DNA from: Microbacterium sp. W4I20
GTDB taxonomy: Bacteria; Actinomycetota; Actinomycetes; Actinomycetales; Microbacteriaceae
Reading direction: 5' to 3'
DNA: 64,000 bases
Assembly: GCF_030816505.1 (NCBI RefSeq)
Contig: NZ_JAUSYB010000001.1
Span: forward strand, 1,922,001 to 1,986,000
Below are positions 4,879 through 37,921 of the stretch, one piece after another (the stretch's first letter is position 1; every line of letters starts with the position of its first letter). The position numbers were made by a program, and so were the translations under genes. The notes under the pieces were generated by a model. It saw only the letters and a program-made list of their open reading frames with translations, was not told the DNA's origin and made no database searches.

Positions 4879-6105
4879 TCAGGAATCCATGCTCCGACTA
4901 TGCGTCCTCTTTGACGGCACAGCGTCCGCCGACGCCTCGTCCTTCGCCACCGGCGGCCGGAGCACGAGGACCACGACGATGATCACGAGGATCAACGCCG
5001 TCAGCGTCACGGGGATCGGCAGCACCGGGTCGAGCAGGACCAGCAGCGCACCGATGGGGACGACCGTGTTCACGACTCGGTCGGCGTTCTCGCGGATCGC
5101 GATCCACCAGATGCCGAGCAGGAAGATCGCTATCGGGATGGTGACGGTGAAGGAGGCCGCGATGTTCGACAGTTCGCTCTTGTGTGTGAGCACGTCGATC
5201 TCCACCTCGATGCCGGCCGAGAACGCGGCGGCGGCGGCGAAGACGAAGTAGTGGGAGTAGCCGTAGCGCAACGAACGCCGGAACGATGTGATGGCCCGGT
5301 GGTGGGGCGGCCAGAAGTAGATCCACCAGAGGGATGCCGTGACGACGAGCGTGAGCACCGAGATCGCGATCAGCGGCCCGAGCGTCTCCACCTCGTCGAA
5401 GGCGTCGATGATCGCGTTCGCCGATGCGAGGAGGCTCTCGCCCAGCACGATGAGCGTGAACAGACCGTAGCGCTCGGTGATGTGGTGCGGGTGCCACGGC
5501 GTCTGCCTGCGGTGCTCGGCGAAGACGGGCACGGAGATCTCGAGCAGGGCGAAGAGCACGAAGGCCGCGATCTGCAGTGGTCCCGCGGGAATGAGGAGGA
5601 AGAGGATCCACAGCACCTGGACGGCGGCGATCCCCCACGCGTAGCGTTTCGTCGCCCCTCGGAGCTGGCCGGCCGACCGTGATGCTCGCAGCCACTGAGC
5701 CACCATCGCGACGCGCATCACCACGTAGCCGAGCACCGTGAGGGTGAAGACGCCCTCGTTGAACGCCCGCGGGATCCCCGCCGCGAGCACCAGCACCCCT
5801 CCCATCTGCACGAAGGTCGTCACGCGGTAGAGCCAGTCGTCGGTGTCGAACGAGGTCGCGAACCAGGTGAAGTTCATCCACGCCCACCAGATCGCGAAGA
5901 ACAGCATCGCGTAGGAGGTGACCCCGTGCAGGAAGTGCCCCTCGCCGAGCGCATGATGCAGCTCGGCGGAGGCGATGCTGACGGCGACCACGAACACGAG
6001 ATCGAAGAACAGCTCGAGGGTGCTCGCCGTGCGGTGCGGCTGCGATGGATCACGCGGCTGCATCGGACGGAGCTGGAAGCGAGAAGCGGCAGGATTCGCG
6101 GTCAC
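4879..6105 (-). CDS. Low temperature requirement protein A (LtrA) family membrane protein
   Basis: 408 residues with about ten transmembrane segments. The N-terminal signature STLELFFDLVFVVAVSIASAELHHAL is diagnostic of the LtrA family, and FFAIWWAWMNFTWFATSFDTDD and ERYGLFTLIVLGESLLASANAI are the other conserved blocks. Family members are membrane proteins linked to cold growth in Listeria; the biochemical role is unknown. The chosen GTG start is leaderless: a -10 TATCCT ends exactly six bases before it. Longer N-terminal extensions in the same frame lack any support. Confidence 0.9.
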   Translation of the reverse strand: MTANPAASRFQLRPMQPRDPSQPHRTASTLELFFDLVFVVAVSIASAELHHALGEGHFLHGVTSYAMLFFAIWWAWMNFTWFATSFDTDDWLYRVTTFVQMGGVLVLAAGIPRAFNEGVFTLTVLGYVVMRVAMVAQWLRASRSAGQLRGATKRYAWGIAAVQVLWILFLLIPAGPLQIAAFVLFALLEISVPVFAEHRRQTPWHPHHITERYGLFTLIVLGESLLASANAIIDAFDEVETLGPLIAISVLTLVVTASLWWIYFWPPHHRAITSFRRSLRYGYSHYFVFAAAAAFSAGIEVEIDVLTHKSELSNIAASFTVTIPIAIFLLGIWWIAIRENADRVVNTVVPIGALLVLLDPVLPIPVTLTALILVIIVVVLVLRPPVAKDEASADAVPSKRTHSRSMDS

Positions 6106-6111
6106 GGCGCA

Positions 6112-6117
6112 AGGATA
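6112..6117 (-). promoter_or_regulatory. -10 element of a leaderless promoter (LtrA-like gene)
   Basis: TATCCT on the minus strand, followed by TGCGCC and then the GTG start, which places transcription start on or next to the start codon. Confidence 0.6.
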
Positions 6118-6167
6118 GTGCCGGCGCGCAGGGGTTCGAGGAAGTTGTTCATCCATTCGCCGGAAAT

Positions 6168-6199
6168 ATCTTCCGCTCCGGCACATCTTCCGCTACAGT
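6168..6199 (+). promoter_or_regulatory. Promoter with a 10-bp direct repeat for the priming transferase gene
   Basis: A weak -35 TTCCGC (6171-6176), 17-bp spacer and -10 TACAGT (6194-6199) predict a start near 6206. The 10-mer ATCTTCCGCT occurs at 6168-6177 and 6185-6194, 17 bases apart, one copy covering the -35 and the other abutting the -10, as an operator for a dimeric activator or repressor would. Confidence 0.5.
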
Positions 6200-6231
6200 G
6201 TTCAAAGTCTGCTGTGCCTGCTGCTAGCGAC

Positions 6232-6379
6232 CGCCGTGTGGGACGGCGAAATGCACTCCGTGAGTGGGATCACCGAGTTCCAGCAGGACCCGAGGGGTCG
6301 GGATGCAGACGTTGGCCGTGAACGTGGGGTTCATGGTTTGGGGAAATCTGGGGAACACACTGATGGCGCACTGGGGATT
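6232..6379 (+). promoter_or_regulatory. G-loop hairpin array in the 5' leader of the priming transferase gene
   Basis: Four well-formed hairpins in a row: arms CGCCGT/ACGGCG with loop GTGGG (6232-6248); ACTC-c-GTGA/TCAC-c-GAGT with loop GTGGGA (6255-6278, one C-C mismatch); CCCGA/TCGGG with loop GGGG (6289-6302); CCGTGAAC/GTTCATGG with loop GTGGG (6316-6336, one G-T). Three more G-runs follow (TTTGGGGAAA, CTGGGGAA, CTGGGGAT to 6379), the last between CGCA and TGCG arms. Arms are unrelated in sequence while loops are almost the same, so recognition of the loop in RNA is the natural reading. See the matching leaders near 20.8, 30.4 and 35.1 kb. Confidence 0.65.
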
Positions 6380-6412
6380 TTTGCGTACATTCACGGCTCA
6401 AGGGGCCTCGGC

Positions 6413-7945
6413 ATGACTTCCGTCGAGGATGCTCTGAGCATCACTCGCGCGGGTTCGGTCTTCTTGCCGATCGCGGCCCCGAGGGCGACCAAGTCGGTGA
6501 CGCACACGGTGGTCACACCGCGCGCCTCCGCAACCCTGGAAAGACGCCGTCAGTGGGAGCGTCGCTATCGGATGAGACTGCGGATCACGGATGCGGCCGT
6601 CATCCTGTTCGCCGTCGGTCTGACCGCGATGGTCCAACTGATGACCGGTGTCGCCGGGCTCGAGATACTCCGCGACGGCGTCCCCCTCGCCGCGCTGTGG
6701 TACCTCATGCTCAGCGCACTGCACACGCGGGACGCCGCGTTGTTCCGTGCGAGTGCCACCGAGTACCGCGGCGTGGTCCACGCCAGCGGGCTCGCCTTCG
6801 GGATCATCGCCATCGTGGCGGTGCTGCTCGCATGGAAGTCGATGCAACTGACACTGCTGCTGGGGCTGCCTGTCGGTGTGTTGACTCTTCTGGTGACCCG
6901 GTGGTTGTGGCGCCACTGGCTCCAGGCGCAGCGGGCGTACGGGAGGTTCACCTCCCGTACGCTCGTCGTCGGAAACCGGGATGACGTCGAGTACGTGGTG
7001 CGCACCCTGCACCCGATCGGCGCGTCCGGCTACCAGGTGGTCGGGGCGACGCTCCTCGACGGCAACGCCCGGGAGGTGGAGGTCGACGGCGCGAAGTTCC
7101 CGGTTCTGGGGAACGTGAACTCCGTGTCGACGGTCGCCGCCGAACTGGGTGCCGACACGATCATCGTGGCGAGCCGCCCCGATGGCGAGCCCGAGTTCGT
7201 GAAGCAGCTGAGCTGGCAGCTCGAGGGGACCGCTGCCGAACTCGTGCTGTCGAGCCGCCTCACCGATGTCGCCGGCCCGCGGATCTCGTTCGCGCCGGTC
7301 GAGGGGCTGCCCCTCATCCAGGTGCAGATCCCGACCTACGAGGGCGGCCAGCACCTGCTGAAGCGTGCCCTCGACATCGCCGTCGCGACGCTCGCGCTCA
7401 TCCCGATCGGCCTGGTGGCTCCGGTCCTGGCGCTGCTCGTCAAGCTCGACTCCCCCGGCCCCGTCTTCTTCTTCCAGGAGCGTGTCGGCCGTGACGGCCG
7501 TCGCTTCAAGATGGTGAAGTTCCGCTCCATGAAGACCGACGCCGAGCAGCAGCTCGCCGCTCTCAAGGAGCAGAACCAGGGCGCAGGCCTCCTGTTCAAG
7601 ATGAAGGACGACCCGCGCGTGACCCGGGTGGGCCGCGTTCTGCGCAAGCTGTCGCTCGACGAACTCCCGCAGTTCTGGAACGTGCTCATCGGTGACATGA
7701 GCGTCGTGGGCCCGCGTCCGCCGCTGCCCAGCGAGGTCACCGCCTACGACGGGACTGTCTTCCGTCGCCTCTACATCAAGCCGGGCATCACCGGGCTGTG
7801 GCAGGTCTCCGGCCGCAGCGACCTCTCCTGGGACGAGAGCGTGCGTCTCGACCTGCGCTACGTCGAGAACTGGTCGGTCATGAACGACCTGCAGATCATG
7901 TGGCGCACCGCGAAGGTCATGGTGCAGCCGAGCGGGGCATACTGA
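6413..7945 (+). CDS. Polyprenyl glycosylphosphotransferase (priming enzyme of exopolysaccharide synthesis)
   Basis: 510 residues. About four membrane segments near the N-terminus (residues 55-170), a CoA-binding-like Rossmann region (TLVVGNRDDVEYVVRTLHP), then the bacterial sugar transferase domain from about residue 318: KRALDIAVATLALIPIG, a membrane helix, SPGPVFFFQERVGRDGRRFKMVKFRSM, LDELPQFWNVLIGDMSVVGPRPP and KPGITGLWQVSGRS. It transfers a sugar-1-phosphate to undecaprenyl phosphate, the first step of a Wzy-type repeat unit. The ATG is preceded by AAGGGG; an upstream in-frame extension would read through the structured leader and is not favoured. A glycosyltransferase follows after four bases. 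Confidence 0.93.
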   Translation: MTSVEDALSITRAGSVFLPIAAPRATKSVTHTVVTPRASATLERRRQWERRYRMRLRITDAAVILFAVGLTAMVQLMTGVAGLEILRDGVPLAALWYLMLSALHTRDAALFRASATEYRGVVHASGLAFGIIAIVAVLLAWKSMQLTLLLGLPVGVLTLLVTRWLWRHWLQAQRAYGRFTSRTLVVGNRDDVEYVVRTLHPIGASGYQVVGATLLDGNAREVEVDGAKFPVLGNVNSVSTVAAELGADTIIVASRPDGEPEFVKQLSWQLEGTAAELVLSSRLTDVAGPRISFAPVEGLPLIQVQIPTYEGGQHLLKRALDIAVATLALIPIGLVAPVLALLVKLDSPGPVFFFQERVGRDGRRFKMVKFRSMKTDAEQQLAALKEQNQGAGLLFKMKDDPRVTRVGRVLRKLSLDELPQFWNVLIGDMSVVGPRPPLPSEVTAYDGTVFRRLYIKPGITGLWQVSGRSDLSWDESVRLDLRYVENWSVMNDLQIMWRTAKVMVQPSGAY

Positions 7946-15144: not shown

Positions 15145-18100
15145 CTACGGCTTCGTGACCGTCAGGTCATCCCAGCTGAAGATCATCGCCGGCACGGTGG
15201 ATGCAGCAGACATCGTGTTCATCAGTCCGAGGGTTCCTGCTGCCTGCATGGCTGCCGTGGTGTCCGTCGCGGAGACCTGCCAGGCGGCGGGCTCCGTATC
15301 GGCGGCCTTCCACACCTTCGCGGCGAGGGTCGTGGGGCTGGTGCCGGTGACCGACAGGGCGACGTTCAGCACCGTTCCCGGCGTGTAAGTGACACCCGGC
15401 ATGAGGTACGAGCCCAGAGAGACCTCGTCGCGCAGCAGGTAGAGCCGCACGCCGCCGCCTACTTCGAACCGCACCCGCGCGGAGTAGTTCGATGCCCCCA
15501 CCTGTCGCCCGACGACGGAGGCGGTCGCAGCCCCACCGGTCGCCACCGCATCCGCCGAGACGGACACGCGGATCACGGCGTCCGTGACGGACAGACCCAG
15601 CCGGGCCGTCCGAGTGGCGGACGGAGCGAGGGACACCTTGCCCTTGCCGTCGGCGACGCTGTACGACGCGGCGCCGCCGGTGACGGTCCAGGCGCCGCCG
15701 GTGTCGGCGGACCCCCACCCCCCGGCCGCGACGGTGCGTGCGAACGTGTCAGCGGCGAGAGTGGATGCCGCCGGCGGAGCCGTGACCGTGACCTGCTTCG
15801 TGATGGTGCCGGTCGTTCCGCTGTTGTCCGTCACGGTGAGCGTGACGGAGTAGGTTCCCGTAGCTGCGTAGGCGTGCGACGCCGTCGCACCCGTCGCCGT
15901 GCCGTTGTCACCGAAGGTCCACGCGTACGACGCGATCGTTCCGTCCGGGTCAGCCGAGGCCGATCCGTCCACCGCCACGGACAAGCCCGTGGCGGTCGGG
16001 GTGAAGGCGGCCACCGGAGCCTGGTTCGGTGCCGGTGCGACCGTCACGTCGACGCTCTTGGTGGCGACGCCGCCGCGATCGTCTGTGACGGTGAGCTTGA
16101 CCGTGTACGTTCCCGCCGCGGCGTAGGTGCGCGACGCCGTGACACCGGTGGCGGTCGAGCCGTCACCGAACGTCCAGGCGTACGATGCGATCGTGCCGTC
16201 TGGGTCGGTCGATGCCGCAGCGTCGACCGAGACCTTCAGGCCTGCCTTCGTCGGTGTGAACGCCGCCGTCGGCAGCTGGTTCGGCGAAGTCGGCGCCGTC
16301 GGATCCGCGACCGTCAGCGACCGCAGGTTCATCGTGGCGGTCTGCGTGACAGACGTGCCGCCGAGGTAGGTCAGCAGACCCACCGAACCGTTGGCCTGGA
16401 GGCCGCTCGTAGTGTCGGTTCCCGACAGCTGCCACGTGGCCGGCTCGGCATCCGAGGAACGCCAGACCTTCGCACGCACCGTCGTCGGCGACGTGCCGGT
16501 GACCTGCAGCCGCACCGAGAGCTCGTCACCCGGCGTGTACGTACCGGGCACCACGTACGAGGTGCCGATCGCCGTCTCGCCCCGCAGGATATAGAGCCGC
16601 ATCGTGTTGCCGGCTTCGAAGCGCACCCGGGCGGAGTAGTTGTCGGATCCGACCTGTCGGCCGATCAGCGTCCAGGAGTATCCGGCACCCGTCCGGTCGA
16701 CGGTGAACTTCGCCAGGAGGTCGGAGTTCTTCGACGAGACCGCGTTCAGCATGGCGCCTCGGGTGTCGTAGATGTTCGAGGCGATCCGCCCGGCCGAACC
16801 GGTGACGGAGAAGCTCGCGTTCCCACCAGAGGTCGTCCAGGCCCCACCCTTGTCGGCGGTGCCCCAACCGGTGGCGGTCGTGCGATCGAACTGGTCCTCG
16901 GCAAGAACCGTGAACTTCGGCGGCTCGACCGCGGTCACCTGCTTCGACGCGGATGCTGTGCCGCCGCGATCGTCCGTGACCGTGACCGTGACCGTGAATG
17001 TACCGGCGGCCGTGTAGTCGTGCGTGGTCGTCGCCGTGGTCGTGGTCTTCGTCGTCGTGTCACCGAAGTCCCAGGCGTAGGAGACGATCGTGCCGTCGGA
17101 GTCGCTCGACGCCGACGCGTTCAGAGAGGCGTTCAGATTGTCGATCGTCGCCGCGAGAGACGCCACGGGTGCCACGTTCGGCGCGAGCGCCGCCGTGACC
17201 TGCTTCGTGGTCGTCGCGCTGCCGCCCCGGTCGTCGGTCACCGTGAGGGTCACCGTGTAGGTGCCCGGGGTGGTGTACGCGTGGGTCTCTGTCGCACCGC
17301 TGCCCACCGCTCCGTCGCCGAAGGCCCACGAGTAGGTGGCGATGGTGCCGTCGGAATCAGCCGATGCCGCGGCGTCGACCGCGACGCTCATGTGCGTCGT
17401 CACGGCCTCGAACGATGCGCTCGGAAGCACGTTGGCCGCCTGCACCGTCACCGGCTGGGTGATGGTGTCGGTCGTCCCGCGGTCATCCGTCACGGTGAGC
17501 GTCACCTGGTAGGTGCCCCCCGCAGCGTAGGCGTGGGAGACCGTCGGCCCCTCGGTCGAGCTCTCGCTGTCGCCGAAGTTCCACTTGTACGACGCGATGC
17601 TGCCGTCCGTGTCGACGGAGGAGGACGCGTCGAACGCGACGTCCAGGTCCGTGGGGATGGAGCTGAAGGCAGCCGTCGGAGCCTCGTTCACCGAGCCGAA
17701 GGCACCGAGCTGGTAGTGCTCGTTCACCTGCGCCCCGGTCAGCGGTGCGCTGTAGACCGCGACCTCGTCGATCGTGCCGGTGAAGGTGGTCGCGCCACCC
17801 CAGCCGTTGTCGTTGCCGACCCGCCAGTAGCCGTTGTAGTTCTGCGCGACGGTGTTCGGGTTCGAGCCGACGAGGTTTCCGTCGACGTAGAACGACATCC
17901 CATCGCCGGACATCTCACCGACGACATGGTGCCATTGGGCGTCGTTGTACGAGCTCGGCGTGGTGATGAGGTTCTGGACGTTGTTGTAGACCCCGAAGTT
18001 GAGCTTTCCGTTCGGCGTCATGAAGATGTGCCGGTCGTTGCTGCTGCTGAGTCCGTTGTTGCTGTCGCCGAACCCGACGATCTTGCCGCCGGCGGCGGTC

Positions 18101-20814
18101 GAGGTCTTGAACCACGCCTCCACCGAGAAGATCTGCGGGTTCACGTACTGCTTCGTTCCGGCCAGCCGGACCGTGGTCGTTCCTGTCGTGGGCGCCCAGC
18201 GCACCGCGGTGTTCGAGACGCCCGAGAGCACGCCGGTCTGACCCTTCACCAGGACGCTCGTGCTGCCGGTGTAGGTGCCCGTCGACTTGTTCATGCCCGC
18301 GTCGGCAGCGGTCGTGGCGCTGCCGGTCTCGCCGAGTCGCCAGTACAGCGTCGGATCCAGGCCGAACACCGACTTGCCGTAGGCGTCGGCGGGAGCCGCA
18401 GGGATCGAGGTCTCTCGTCCGCTGGCGGTCCAGTGCGCGTCGACCTCGGCGCGGGTGAGCGCCTTGTCGTAGACGGCGACGTTCGAGATCGCGCCGCTCA
18501 GGTATCCGCTGGTGCCGGCGTTGGGCCACGAGCTGACGCTGTCGCCGCCGATCCGCCAGTAGCCGGTGTAGTCCTGCGCGGAGAACGTGTCGGTGCGGTC
18601 GCCGATCTTGACGCCGTCGACGTAGAGCACCTGGCCGGTCGCACTGAGCGTGCCGACGACGTGGTGCCACTTGTTGTCGTTGAAGCCGGTGCCGCTCGAG
18701 ATGCTCCTGGTGTCTCCCGAGTACACGCCGAACGTGACGCGTCCCGAGTTGTCCAGGTACACCTGGCGGTCATAGCTGGAGGAGTTGCCGGTCGGCGACG
18801 AGCCGAAGCCGACGATCTTCCCGCCGCGCGTGCTGCTCGTCTTGAACCAGGCCTCGACCGTGAAGGTCTGCGGACCGGTCTGCGCCGTGGTGGTGCGGGC
18901 GCCTGAGCCACTGCTGCCCGTGAAGGTCGTGGCCGTGGTGGTCGCCGTCAGGTTGGGCCCGGTCGCTCCTCGCGTCCCGCTGGCCACGACGAGATCGTTG
19001 CCGCCCGCCCAGTCGAAGGCCGCCGTACCGGTCGGTTCGTTCAGGGGCCAGTAGTCCACGGCACCGCTGGAGAGCACCGCGTCGTCGTAGGCCGTCGACA
19101 CGCCGACCGCAGCTGTCGTCACGGGGACCCAGTCGGTCTGCGTGCTGTTGCCGAACGAGTCCAGCGCACGGACTCGATAACTGTAAGTCGTTCCGGGCAC
19201 AGCGGTCTTGTCGCGATAGGACATCGCCGGCCGGTTCCAGAACGTCGAGAGCTGATCGGTCTCGTAGATCGGTGTGGTCATGCCCTTGTCCTGGCGGAAC
19301 ACCTGGTAGTGCAGACTCTCGTTGTCGCGGTCGTGGTTCGCGCTCCACGCCAGCCGGTTGACGCCGGTCTGGACGGATGCGGCGCTGAGCGCCCAGGCAC
19401 CGCCCTGCACCTGAGGTCCCTGCTTGTTGGGGGCGACGTTCTTCTTCGCGAAGCGGACGATGCCCTGCTGCGCGGCGCCGTTCACCTTGAGGAACTCGCC
19501 GCCGATGAGCATGTAGTCGCCGGCCGCGGTGGCCTGCCACGGTCCCTGGTACTGGCCGGTGTAGTTGCCCGGCACCCACTCGGGGTACCACTGAAGGATC
19601 GTGGGCGTGGGCTGACCGGTGAAGCTGCGGTATCCCTGCGTGTCCGGAGTGATGGTCTTTCCGCTGGGCGTCTTCGAGAACGCGAGCGAGTGCTTGTAGG
19701 ACCGCGGGTTCGTCTCGGGGAAGCTGCCGATGTTGGCGCAGTAGTGCGGGTGGCCGACGACGTAGATCGCGTCAGCCGTGGGAGCGACGTCGTAGCTGTC
19801 GCCGTGGCAGTCCTCCATCCACTGCAGGGTGCCATCGCTCCAGCTCGCGCGGAACGCGCCCTCGAAACCGTCCTGAGAGGTTCCGCCGTAGTCGAAGCCC
19901 GTGCCGTAGACGCTGTCTCCGTCGGACGACAGGGAGTACATGGCCGCCACCGTGCCCGCATTGCGGAGCACGCTGTTCATGGCCCAGGGCATGAGCGTGC
20001 CGGTGCTCGCGTCGAGGGCGGTGATGCCGCGGCCGGGGTTGGTCGAGCCGTTCACCGAGGTGAATGAGCCGGCGATCACGACCTTGCTGCTGTCGGGCGA
20101 GACGACGATGCCCTTCGCACCGTAACCGCCCTGCACGTCGGCGGTGAAGCCGGTCACGGCTCCGGTGGACGACGACACGGCCGCGACCTTCGTGCGCTGC
20201 GTGCCGTTGATCGTGGTGAACTCGCCGGCGAGGTAGACCGTGGAGTCGGTGAGGGCGATCGAGTCGATCCGACCGTTCGCCTCGGGCGCCCAGTTGGTGA
20301 TGAGCGCGCCGGTCGCCGTGCTGAATGCCGCGACGCGGTAGCGCCAGTTGCCCGCCGTCTGCGAGAACATTCCCGCGACATAGATGCGCGAGCCGTCTGC
20401 CGACTTCTTGATGTCGAGGACGGTGCCGTTGGCACCGGGGTTCCACGAGGAGATGAGCGCGCCCGTGGTCAGGTTGTAGGCGAGCAGGTTCGCTCGCGGG
20501 GTCTCGTTGGTGCCGAGCGGAGAGCCGGCGGGTCGCGCGTTGGCGAAGCTTCCGCCGACGTAGACCGTGTTCCCGACGACCTCCTGCGCGTACACGACAC
20601 CGTCGATCTGCACGGTGGGCAATGCGTCGGCCGCGAAGGTCTCGGGCGTTCCTGCTGCCGGCGCCGTGTCTGCGGCCGCGGCGACCGGAACGGTCAGAGC
20701 CCCGACGGTCAGAGCAAGGGCGGTTGCTACCGCTCCCAGCAGCGTCGCGCCGCGCGAGCGGCGGTTTCCGTGCTTACCAGCCGTCACGAAACGGCCACCC
20801 CAATTGATCTGCAC
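15145..20814 (-). CDS. Very large secreted multidomain surface protein (propeller, Fn3, LamG, PKD, jelly-roll modules)
   Basis: 1889 residues. Signal peptide to about residue 47 (LALTVGALTVPVAAAADTA). Then: beta-propeller-like repeats of the delta-60 kind (about 60-465, e.g. VYVGGSFANA, VYLAGEFTTINGTQ, VVIAGSFTSVNGS); an Fn3-like domain (486-575); two LamG/concanavalin-like domains (586-790, 825-1025, each with FTVEAWFKTS and WHHVVG); three PKD domains (from 1040, 1126, 1211); a module starting DQFDRTTATGWG (1300-1501); two PKD domains (from 1510, 1596); and a second copy of that module, DTFARTVAAGGWG, to the end. No LPXTG or membrane anchor is seen, so retention would be non-covalent. Carbohydrate binding or adhesion is likely; no catalytic motif recognised. 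GTG start behind GGGGAGA. Confidence 0.9.
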   Translation of the reverse strand: MQINWGGRFVTAGKHGNRRSRGATLLGAVATALALTVGALTVPVAAAADTAPAAGTPETFAADALPTVQIDGVVYAQEVVGNTVYVGGSFANARPAGSPLGTNETPRANLLAYNLTTGALISSWNPGANGTVLDIKKSADGSRIYVAGMFSQTAGNWRYRVAAFSTATGALITNWAPEANGRIDSIALTDSTVYLAGEFTTINGTQRTKVAAVSSSTGAVTGFTADVQGGYGAKGIVVSPDSSKVVIAGSFTSVNGSTNPGRGITALDASTGTLMPWAMNSVLRNAGTVAAMYSLSSDGDSVYGTGFDYGGTSQDGFEGAFRASWSDGTLQWMEDCHGDSYDVAPTADAIYVVGHPHYCANIGSFPETNPRSYKHSLAFSKTPSGKTITPDTQGYRSFTGQPTPTILQWYPEWVPGNYTGQYQGPWQATAAGDYMLIGGEFLKVNGAAQQGIVRFAKKNVAPNKQGPQVQGGAWALSAASVQTGVNRLAWSANHDRDNESLHYQVFRQDKGMTTPIYETDQLSTFWNRPAMSYRDKTAVPGTTYSYRVRALDSFGNSTQTDWVPVTTAAVGVSTAYDDAVLSSGAVDYWPLNEPTGTAAFDWAGGNDLVVASGTRGATGPNLTATTTATTFTGSSGSGARTTTAQTGPQTFTVEAWFKTSSTRGGKIVGFGSSPTGNSSSYDRQVYLDNSGRVTFGVYSGDTRSISSGTGFNDNKWHHVVGTLSATGQVLYVDGVKIGDRTDTFSAQDYTGYWRIGGDSVSSWPNAGTSGYLSGAISNVAVYDKALTRAEVDAHWTASGRETSIPAAPADAYGKSVFGLDPTLYWRLGETGSATTAADAGMNKSTGTYTGSTSVLVKGQTGVLSGVSNTAVRWAPTTGTTTVRLAGTKQYVNPQIFSVEAWFKTSTAAGGKIVGFGDSNNGLSSSNDRHIFMTPNGKLNFGVYNNVQNLITTPSSYNDAQWHHVVGEMSGDGMSFYVDGNLVGSNPNTVAQNYNGYWRVGNDNGWGGATTFTGTIDEVAVYSAPLTGAQVNEHYQLGAFGSVNEAPTAAFSSIPTDLDVAFDASSSVDTDGSIASYKWNFGDSESSTEGPTVSHAYAAGGTYQVTLTVTDDRGTTDTITQPVTVQAANVLPSASFEAVTTHMSVAVDAAASADSDGTIATYSWAFGDGAVGSGATETHAYTTPGTYTVTLTVTDDRGGSATTTKQVTAALAPNVAPVASLAATIDNLNASLNASASSDSDGTIVSYAWDFGDTTTKTTTTATTTHDYTAAGTFTVTVTVTDDRGGTASASKQVTAVEPPKFTVLAEDQFDRTTATGWGTADKGGAWTTSGGNASFSVTGSAGRIASNIYDTRGAMLNAVSSKNSDLLAKFTVDRTGAGYSWTLIGRQVGSDNYSARVRFEAGNTMRLYILRGETAIGTSYVVPGTYTPGDELSVRLQVTGTSPTTVRAKVWRSSDAEPATWQLSGTDTTSGLQANGSVGLLTYLGGTSVTQTATMNLRSLTVADPTAPTSPNQLPTAAFTPTKAGLKVSVDAAASTDPDGTIASYAWTFGDGSTATGVTASRTYAAAGTYTVKLTVTDDRGGVATKSVDVTVAPAPNQAPVAAFTPTATGLSVAVDGSASADPDGTIASYAWTFGDNGTATGATASHAYAATGTYSVTLTVTDNSGTTGTITKQVTVTAPPAASTLAADTFARTVAAGGWGSADTGGAWTVTGGAASYSVADGKGKVSLAPSATRTARLGLSVTDAVIRVSVSADAVATGGAATASVVGRQVGASNYSARVRFEVGGGVRLYLLRDEVSLGSYLMPGVTYTPGTVLNVALSVTGTSPTTLAAKVWKAADTEPAAWQVSATDTTAAMQAAGTLGLMNTMSAASTVPAMIFSWDDLTVTKP

Positions 20815-20818
20815 TGTG

Positions 20819-20887
20819 ATTCTCCCCAGAATTCTGCCTGCGCACCGAAGCGACGCATAAATGAAGGCCGTCCCCCTAGACGGCCTT
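20819..20887 (-). promoter_or_regulatory. G-loop hairpins in the leader of the 1889-residue surface protein gene
   Basis: On the minus strand the transcript should begin near 20895 and immediately fold a 9-bp hairpin (arms AAGGCCGTC/GACGGCCTT, loop TAGGGG, 20887-20864). A second hairpin, arms ATTCT/AGAAT with loop GGGG (20832-20819), lies right before the GTG; its loop and 3' arm are the ribosome site GGGGAGA. The first could also act as an attenuator, though no U-tract follows (CATTTATG). Confidence 0.6.
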
Positions 20888-30194: not shown

Positions 30195-30492
30195 ATGGGA
30201 GAGCCCGGGCCTTTTCGTGGGGGATCGTGCTTCTGACAGCGAGCTCGGGCGATCCGTCACAGGTCGCGTCGGCTTCACGATGCGACCGTGTTCTTGCGGG
30301 AACCACTCGAGTTCTGGTCCCTCCCCGCTGCGCACCATACCCCATCAAGCTGGAAAAGCTCCAGCATCCCCGGTCTCGTCCCAGAGCATCCGATAGAGTC
30401 GTCGGGTACGACTGTGGGGGTCGTGGACGGCAGGGGATGGCCGTCCGCTCTGTGACGCCACCACGGACATCGACGTTTTCTCGAGGGGGATC
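30195..30492. other. 298-base divergent intergenic region between the beta-helix gene and rmlA
   Basis: Contains a possible minus-strand -10 TATGGT (30339-30334), a 6-bp inverted repeat GCTGGA/TCCAGC (30349-30365) lying between the two divergent promoters as an operator could, a plus-strand -10 TAGAGT (30394-30399), and the rmlA leader hairpins listed separately. Confidence 0.5.
30394..30446 (+). promoter_or_regulatory. Promoter -10 and two G-loop hairpins in the rmlA leader
   Basis: -10 TAGAGT (30394-30399) predicts a start near 30406. The first bases fold arms ACGAC/GTCGT with loop TGTGGGG (30408-30424, extendable by a T-G pair), then arms GGACGGC/GCCGTCC with loop AGGGGATG (30425-30446). 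About 45 bases then lead to the GAGGGG ribosome site. Confidence 0.6.
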
Positions 30493-33781
<3,289 letters not shown>

Positions 33782-35059: not shown

Positions 35060-35126
35060 GCGGCTGTGGGAGTCGCACGGCGGATGGGGATCCGCCTTCT
35101 GGGGAATTACTGATCTGGGGAGATCA
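35060..35126 (+). promoter_or_regulatory. Three to four tandem G-loop hairpins in the leader of the TagD-like gene
   Basis: Arms GCGGCT/AGTCGC with loop GTGGG (35060-35076, one G-T); GGCGGAT/ATCCGCC with loop GGGG (35079-35096); a weak TTC/GAA around TGGG (35097-35106); TGATCT/AGATCA with loop GGGG (35111-35126), the last base being the A of the start codon. The loop and arm GGGGAGA are the ribosome site, so folding of this hairpin bears directly on translation. The leader is almost nothing but these hairpins. Confidence 0.7.
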
Positions 35127-35581
35127 TGGGGACGCGTATCGGCTATGCCGTGGGTGCTTTCGACCTGTTTCACGTCGGGCATCTGAACCTTCTTCGTCAC
35201 GCCAAGCAGCAGTGCGATGTTCTGATCGCCGGTGTCGTGAGCGACGAGATGCTCCGTCAGGTGAAGGGCATCGAGCCCGTCATCCCGACAGCGGAACGTG
35301 CGGAGATCGTCAAGCACATCTCGTTCGTCGACGACGTGTACGTCGAGACGACGCCGTCGAAGCTCGACTCGTGGCGAGACGTGCAGTTCACGCACTTCTT
35401 CAAGGGCGATGACTGGCGCGGCACCGAGAAGGGCCTGCGCCTCGAGCGCGAGTTCGCCGAGGTCGGCGTGGAGGTCGTGTACTTCCCGTACACCGCGCAC
35501 ACGTCGAGCTCGTCGCTGCGGCGAGCGCTCGACGCGATCACCGCCGGCGCGAACGCACCGACGCTCGCCCTGTCCCGCTGA
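35126..35581 (+). CDS. TagD-like cytidylyltransferase / adenylyltransferase family protein
   Basis: 151 residues. Nucleotidyltransferase signature GYAVGAFDLFHVGHLNLLRHAK with the HXGH motif, and a C-terminal TSSSSLRRALD replacing the RTXGISTT motif of glycerol-3-phosphate cytidylyltransferases. FFKGDDWRGTEKG is the substrate-side block. It should make a CDP-alcohol (or an ADP-sugar) from a small phosphorylated alcohol. With the CDP-alcohol phosphatidyltransferase in the same region it may feed a polyol-phosphate decoration. Substrate cannot be read from sequence. Confidence 0.85.
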   Translation: MGTRIGYAVGAFDLFHVGHLNLLRHAKQQCDVLIAGVVSDEMLRQVKGIEPVIPTAERAEIVKHISFVDDVYVETTPSKLDSWRDVQFTHFFKGDDWRGTEKGLRLEREFAEVGVEVVYFPYTAHTSSSSLRRALDAITAGANAPTLALSR

Positions 35582-37657: not shown

Positions 37658-37921
37658 ATGACTTCTCCTGCCTCAGACACGATCACGATGTTCGGCGCCG
37701 AGTGGTGCAGCGACTGCCGCCGCACCAAGAAGCAGCTCGATGAGCTGGGCGTCGAGTACACCTACGTCGACCTCGAGGCCGACCCCTCCGCCGCAGACGT
37801 CGCGAAAGAGATCTCGGGACGCATGAACATCCCGGTCGTGCTCTACCCCGACGCCTCGCACCATGTCGAGCCCTCGAACGCCGACGTCGAGACGAAGCTG
37901 CGGGAACTCGCGCTGATCTGA
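37658..37921 (+). CDS. Glutaredoxin-like protein (mycoredoxin family)
   Basis: 87 residues with a thioredoxin fold: TITMFGAEWCSDCRRTKKQLDELGVEYTYVDLE, redox pair CSDC, cis-Pro in MNIPVVLYPD. Actinobacterial members of this size reduce mycothiol mixed disulfides; the usual motif is CGYC, so CSDC is a variant. Single gene with its own promoter. Confidence 0.88.
   Translation: MTSPASDTITMFGAEWCSDCRRTKKQLDELGVEYTYVDLEADPSAADVAKEISGRMNIPVVLYPDASHHVEPSNADVETKLRELALI

Follow-up and report, generated by a model that had tools for sequence, protein, structure and literature searches.

The transferase leader and its G-tipped hairpins

The window analysed here, a 64,000-nucleotide stretch of the genome of Microbacterium sp. 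W4I20, contains a polysaccharide operon that opens with a sugar transferase gene and continues with glycosyltransferases, a Wzz-like protein and a protein with a weak, below-cut-off match to Wzy_C. Many Microbacterium records hold a protein 89-95% identical to the transferase, and the divergent neighbour of the operon (4879-6186) is LtrA. The leader of the transferase gene and the gene itself comprise the following features:

6194-6199, plus strand: -10-like hexamer TACAGT
6207-6212, plus strand: 5' strand of helix P1, GTCTGC, pairing with 6305-6310
6217-6223, plus strand: 5' strand of helix P2, CCTGCTG, pairing with 6281-6287
6232-6248, plus strand: hairpin H1, 6 bp, loop GTGGG
6255-6278, plus strand: hairpin H2, 8 bp and one C-C mismatch, loop GTGGGA
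6281-6287, plus strand: 3' strand of P2, CAGCAGG, pairing with 6217-6223
6289-6302, plus strand: hairpin H3, 5 bp, loop GGGG
6305-6310, plus strand: 3' strand of P1, GCAGAC, pairing with 6207-6212
6316-6336, plus strand: hairpin H4, 8 bp with one G-T, loop GTGGG
6338-6345, plus strand: unpaired site TTGGGGAA
6348-6355, plus strand: second site CTGGGGAA, the putative Shine-Dalgarno sequence of the upstream ORF
6363-6416, plus strand: upstream ORF (uORF) MAHWGFLRTFTAQGASA, its stop overlapping the transferase start (ATGA)
6413-7945, plus strand: sugar transferase, first gene of the polysaccharide operon (PF02397, E 3.9e-68)

The four hairpins were recovered at the positions and with the loops given in a preliminary description of this DNA, the C-C in H2 and the G-T in H4 being their only imperfections. 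That description counted three further runs of four G before the ATG; there are four, starting at 6340, 6350, 6373 and 6402, and the one at 6373 lies inside the conserved uORF, where it encodes Trp-Gly. The closing helices P1 and P2 and the uORF had been overlooked. Under a rule of at least five pairs and a loop of exactly GTGGG or GGGG, which leaves H2 outside, both strands of the window hold 13 hairpins; 100 dinucleotide-shuffled versions average 5.3 (sd 2.2) and reach 11 at most. Clusters of three such hairpins occur at two places (6232-6336 and 35060-35126) and in none of the 100 shuffles. A scan of 800 kb of the same genome, which admitted loops GTGGG, GGGG, TTGGG or CTGGG accompanied by a neighbouring hairpin or by two TGGGGA nearby, returned no further G-loop hairpin cluster, its single qualifying place being a known locus.

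Fold, covariation and conserved signals

The leader was found by DNA search in 6 of 38 genomes, that of W4I20 included. When these six are aligned, conservation starts at the -10-like TACAGT/TAGAGT and extends through the start codon, while the sequence upstream diverges. Each of the six sequences has P1 in its minimum-energy fold, and P2 is likewise a minimum-energy helix; the nesting is common to the window and its five relatives, with P1 enclosing P2 and H3, P2 enclosing H1 and H2, and H4 standing outside. The folding energy of the 212-nt leader of the window is not below that of shuffles (z 0.65), and the leaders of the relatives (139-146 nt) give z values of -1.34 to -4.78.

A covariance-model search, which the preliminary description had proposed as a check, located the fold in 61 of 295 Microbacterium genomes (model R2, E <= 1e-3). 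Matches weaker than E 5e-4, of which there are many up to E 1, were dropped, and eight were inspected: the weak matches L078-L080 are unconvincing as leader copies, and L081-L085, five near-identical matches to model positions 22-82, resemble conserved coding sequence. Searched with strict filters and seven candidates scored per genome, 398 genomes of the family yielded five matches to model R3, four in Microbacterium and a single marginal one outside the genus (G338, 53 nt, E 0.0099). Second copies of the leader stand before other genes in G113 and G198 (L074:2715-2843 and L075:430-567), the L074 copy lying after the first transferase and before a glycosyltransferase-like frame.

We observe that 96.2% of the cells pair in an alignment of 63 copies (A7). 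In this alignment, which was fitted to the covariance model, 36 of 41 pairs have changed on both sides (shuffles give 16.5 and slid controls 13-17), and both-side-changed cells number 250 against 49.9 and 24-31, respectively. Such changes affect all six pairs of P1, 6/7 of P2, 6/6 of H1, 7/9 of H2, 4/5 of H3 and 7/8 of H4. The six-row alignment, which was not fitted to the model, points in the same direction, with six both-side-changed pairs against 1.9; two of its changed pairs fall in H1, three in H4 and none in H2 or H3. The loops behave differently from the arms. GGG is present in the H1 loop in 62 of 63 copies (GTGGG in 42) and in the H2 loop in all 63 (GTGGG or GTGGGA in 56), and H3 keeps GGGG in 61; H4 has GTGGG in 49 copies and various loops, such as GTTTT, in the rest, so that its G's are kept in only 49 or 50. 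Judged by this covariation, H1-H4 belong to a real RNA fold. The arms do covary among relatives, and covariation and loop constancy together lend strong support to the earlier proposal of an RNA element with constant loops on varying arms.

In 62 of the 63 copies a TANNNT hexamer finishes 6-9 nt short of P1, compared with 1.8% of random 28-mers of the window that contain one, so the transcript probably starts at the foot of P1, where about +1 would fall. The -10-like hexamer thus sits just upstream of the fold and not beyond 6336, the point past which a start would, in the preliminary description, have counted against the element. Around the hexamer, a direct repeat ATCTTCCGCT (6168-6177 and 6185-6194, 17 bp apart) lies upstream of it and touches it, and a CTTCC near -35 is conserved across the six-genome alignment.

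Downstream of H4, the first unpaired site reads CTGGGGAA in 48/63 copies and TTGGGGAA in 5/63. The uORF frame is maintained even where the distance between the two TGGGGA sites differs. A uORF pattern of start codon plus Trp-Gly is present in 61/63 copies, 60 of them with the ATGA overlap; its length is 17 codons in 51 copies, and the distance from GGGG to its start is 4-10 nt in the 61 pattern copies, 5 or 6 nt in 50. L086 and L099 lack a Trp codon in the uORF and keep its start, length and ATGA. We take the uORF to be translated and coupled to the transferase. MraZ boxes, which are TGGG repeats, were considered as an explanation and rejected: the spacing of the two unpaired sites is variable, and covarying arms are ill-suited to a DNA site.

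The same tips in orthologous leaders and at other surface genes

Orthologues of the transferase exist in 284 of 295 genomes of the genus (E <= 1e-60). Twenty orthologues without an R2 match were picked among the better matches, and the 400 nt upstream of each were examined for hairpins of at least six pairs with loops of 4-5 nt. GGG ends 23 of the 64 hairpin loops (the next triplet, 4), against a mean of 0.65 and a maximum of 5 among 200 shuffles, which bears out the predicted enrichment of G-loop hairpins in leaders of orthologous polysaccharide genes. At least one GGG-loop hairpin is found in 16 of the 20 genomes, the other four having none, and the arms are unrelated between leaders, e.g. 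cggagacgaGGGGtcgtctccg (G287) and ggcatcggatGTGGGattcgatgcc (G144). A comparison of named loci covered 76 of 80 (L346 was omitted, as were L283, L338 and L341, whose upstream DNA was too short or whose match was partial). GGG-ending loops make up 55 of 82 hairpins in 24 close Microbacterium leaders and 17 of 57 in 17 distant ones, one of them labelled Actinomycetales bacterium, where they are confined to nine leaders and missing from eight; 35 leaders of other genera have 2 of 90, with no excess over the 1.23 in 30 shuffles. The tips look like a habit of the genus Microbacterium at the transferase gene.

Within the window the same tips recur before three other genes:

20819-20887, minus strand: leader of a large PKD/laminin-G surface protein (CDS 15145-20814)
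20887-20864, minus strand: hairpin of this leader with a TAGGGG loop
20832-20819, minus strand: ATTCTGGGGAGAAT at its Shine-Dalgarno sequence, before GTG
30408-30448, plus strand: rfbA-like leader with hairpins ACGACTGTGGGGGTCGT and GGACGGCAGGGGATGGCCGTCC (CDS 30493-31365)
35060-35126, plus strand: leader of a tagD-like cytidylyltransferase (CDS 35126-35581)
35060-35076, plus strand: GTGGG hairpin of the tagD-like leader
35079-35096, plus strand: GGGG hairpin of the tagD-like leader
35099-35106, plus strand: CTGGGGAA in the tagD-like leader
35111-35126, plus strand: Shine-Dalgarno hairpin TGATCTGGGGAGATCA of the tagD-like leader

All four core motifs of the tagD-like leader (CTGTGGGAG, TGGGGATCC, CTGGGGAAT and GATCTGGGGAGATCATG) are present in 7/7 genomes, as is GGGG at its Shine-Dalgarno sequence. 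Both rfbA-like hairpins are present in the two relatives with an orthologue within the compared stretches; the minimum-energy fold of the whole leader keeps the second hairpin and not the first. In the whole-leader fold of the PKD protein gene, the Shine-Dalgarno GGGG pairs with an upstream CCCC and the tip does not form; TCATCTGGGGAGATGA occurs near a relative in G001. The glutaredoxin-like protein of 87 residues encoded at 37658-37921 (PF00462) is conserved in 6/6 of the relatives' stretches.

Across the W4I20 genome, the pattern CTGGGGA-N2-10-ATG has 48 matches, compared with 22 for its reverse, and contributed one new case: a secreted protein of 193 residues (C1:984892), preceded by GTGGG and ATTCTGGGGAGAAT hairpins and with GGGG at the Shine-Dalgarno sequence. 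The protein has no Pfam match, and its sortase-signal-like end (MPLTGG, a hydrophobic stretch, RRKRA) was assigned by eye. The pattern TGGGGA-N2-32-TGGGGA has 32 matches against 12 reversed; among the 30 with loci, only L224 has a new hairpin cluster, and single hairpins occur in L241, L242 and L246. On inspection of the sequence, L224 and L242 were taken as unrelated to the leaders. Near position 1500 of L224 (C1 about 1,346,761-1,346,826) there is a repeated TGGGGATTCGCAGGCGCTG with a 13-bp GGGG-loop hairpin, adjoining an opposite-strand frame that by eye resembles a response regulator; the hairpin is perhaps a terminator.

These observations bear on two alternatives in which the tips are not the element that is read. 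The first, raised in the preliminary description, is that the G-runs form an RNA G-quadruplex and the arms are incidental. The leader does have seven or more GGG or GGGG runs. Against this, the arms covary and the runs are not closely spaced: none of the four window leaders has four G-tracts with loops of at most 12 nt, and 2/63 copies up to H4 do, a figure that rises to 23/63 only when loops of up to 20 nt are allowed; four tracts of at least three G with loops of at most 7 nt occur in 0/63. We consider a quadruplex very improbable. The second alternative has the leader sense a metabolite as a riboswitch or promote processive antitermination in the way of Bacillus epsC/EAR, as the multibranch structure opening a long polysaccharide operon might suggest. 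Yet hairpin arms, number and order turn over while the tips persist, unlike an aptamer core, and the tips also stand before single genes and at Shine-Dalgarno sequences. No terminator-like site was found at 5900-6700, and Rfam 15 gives no match in the window at the gathering cut-off, with only unrelated miRNA or lncRNA models below it (E 0.17-5.7). This reading is improbable, if less so than the quadruplex. We found no description of these leaders among the PMC papers that the literature searches covered.

Candidate readers and known systems

What could read these tips? We lean slightly towards a trans-acting factor, probably a protein, that binds the loops and governs translation of a surface-coat regulon. 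The leader RNA would act in cis by displaying a repeated tip, a GGGG tetraloop or a GUGGG pentaloop, along with UGGGGA at the ribosome-binding site. The factor, for which an RNA-binding protein is the most likely candidate, would bind the tips, and its occupancy would cover or spread to the UGGGGA that serves as the putative Shine-Dalgarno sequence of the uORF. Because the uORF stop and the transferase start share the ATGA, transferase translation would follow that of the uORF. Control would be translational, and repression is our guess at its direction; tagD, rfbA and two genes for surface proteins, which carry such tips as well, would complete a small surface-coat regulon. What can be read directly from the sequences is the fold, its covariation, the constancy of the loops, the -10-like position, the uORF overlap and the recurrence at surface genes; the existence of a trans factor, its protein nature and translational control we infer. 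The earlier claim that the element is read in its loops accordingly divides: constant loops on covarying arms stand, and reading in trans is the inferred part.

One candidate is CsrA, which reads loops; the leader of W4I20 would then be a relic of a recent loss of CsrA along with motility. The preliminary description had held CsrA not to be usual in actinobacteria, a view that does not fit this genus, where 76 of 295 genomes have it, though that of W4I20 does not. Counting genomes irrespective of kinship, CsrA is present in 45 of 61 with the modelled leader and in 31 of 234 others (Fisher p 1.4e-19). GGG occurs in all H1-H3 loops in 46/46 copies from CsrA genomes against 14/17 from CsrA-less ones, and near-identical leaders are shared by genomes that differ in having CsrA (G130, G081). 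Two CsrA types occur in the genus (LTRRANESI... and LTRRIGESV...; L124-L137), with 45-55% mutual identity.

The CsrA motif of the genus nevertheless looks canonical, and it is not the tip. A regular expression found no flagellin in 14 csrA neighbourhoods, for which reason flagellin was sought by Pfam model. All 20 flagellin leaders compared from CsrA genomes (L138-L157) carry two ACGGA within the 90 nt before the flagellin start, one of them at the Shine-Dalgarno sequence, and in 18 of the 20 at least five pairs surround one ACGGA; such leaders are as expected for an actinobacterial CsrA target. The G tips read UGGGA or AGGGGU instead. ACGGA is present in 20/63 leader copies, in the examples inspected chiefly within the 3' arm of H2, where it is paired, and ANGGA in 27/63, so the loops are not the ANGGA loops of CsrA/Rsm targets. 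GGA does occur in some loops (UGGGA), and H3 and, in close relatives, H4 are without it. The W4I20 genome lacks the csrA gene that a CsrA/Rsm-regulated leader would call for, and both it and G005 have neither CsrA nor flagellin; among CsrA-less orthologues outside the model, 14/17 have GGG-loop hairpins with unrelated arms. CsrA is thus unlikely as the reader, and we would give the relic scenario about one chance in ten. The association of CsrA with the leader may reflect common descent and motility. By its sequence the leader would work like Csr/Rsm targets, which we offer as a likeness and not as membership of that class.

The tips might instead be read by 6C/B11, a conserved actinobacterial sRNA, whose C-rich loops would pair with the G tips and with the GGGGAA of the ribosome-binding site and repress genes for surface polymers in the manner of mycobacterial B11. 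It is a serious rival because in mycobacteria 6C/B11 acts at surface-glycolipid genes (PMC10470900, PMC12395582); in M. abscessus, repression is possible through either C-rich loop (PMC10470900). Between acs and a secretion-type cluster, the W4I20 genome carries a 6C-like RNA of two hairpins whose C-rich loops are UUCCCCCCG and UUCCCCCGA-type (L025:2071-2158; C1 about 3,718,998-3,719,085), and similar RNAs occur in several relatives. The W4I20 copy was recognised by eye beside acs; the Rfam 6C model did not report it in a scan of 21 genomes or among 20 acs-adjacent loci, four of which were reported. UUCCCC could pair with the GGGGAA of the unpaired sites. In duplex energies only, complementarity does not exceed chance: 157, 113, 91, 124 and 81 of 200 shuffled leaders do as well as the five real ones in their best duplex with a 6C loop. 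Moreover, the constant U of GUGGG and the limit of four G's are ill-suited to a run of six C's, and 6C-like matches occur in another genus as well (one order genome), while leaders of other genera have no tips. We regard 6C/B11 as a possible reader, at roughly the chance of one in several.

Our preferred idea is a protein that recognises GGGG and to which GUGGG presents the same tip with its U flipped out, because the U is constant and the G's are capped at four. We hypothesize, tentatively and at somewhat short of even chances, that the genus has its own surface-coat regulon, read perhaps by a genus-specific RNA-binding protein, in which hairpin arms, number and order are free to turn over; this would be a Csr-like code read from loops, with no CsrA involved. 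Little has been charted of post-transcriptional control in actinobacteria, and these leaders would provide a compact, testable loop code across several surface genes, with natural variants that keep little besides the tips. Identifying what binds the tips would either add a new regulator of the bacterial cell coat or reveal that dedicated receptor hairpins have arisen for the 6C sRNA.

The leaders recall three known systems. The epsC/EAR element of Bacillus has a role in antitermination. It, too, is a structured RNA in an exopolysaccharide operon leader, as described in PMC2864571; the leaders reported here differ in having no Rfam match, in their repeated G tips and in their occurrence also at single genes and start codons. 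With the mycobacterial 6C/B11 targets (PMC10470900, PMC12395582) they share G tracts near the ribosome-binding sites of surface-polymer genes, and 6C RNA is present in Microbacterium as well. Here, unlike there, the G's lie in the tips of covarying hairpins, in runs of no more than four that a U often interrupts, and the pairing energies bear no sign of selection for 6C. CsrA/RsmA targets ANGGA, as opposed to the GUGGG/GGGG loops of a genome without CsrA. The pgaA leader contains several CsrA sites. As in CsrA/RsmA target leaders, several hairpin-loop sites stand in a polysaccharide leader, one of them at the Shine-Dalgarno sequence, and translation would be coupled through a short upstream ORF, an arrangement for which the iraD report describes CsrA control with uORF coupling (PMC5574718).
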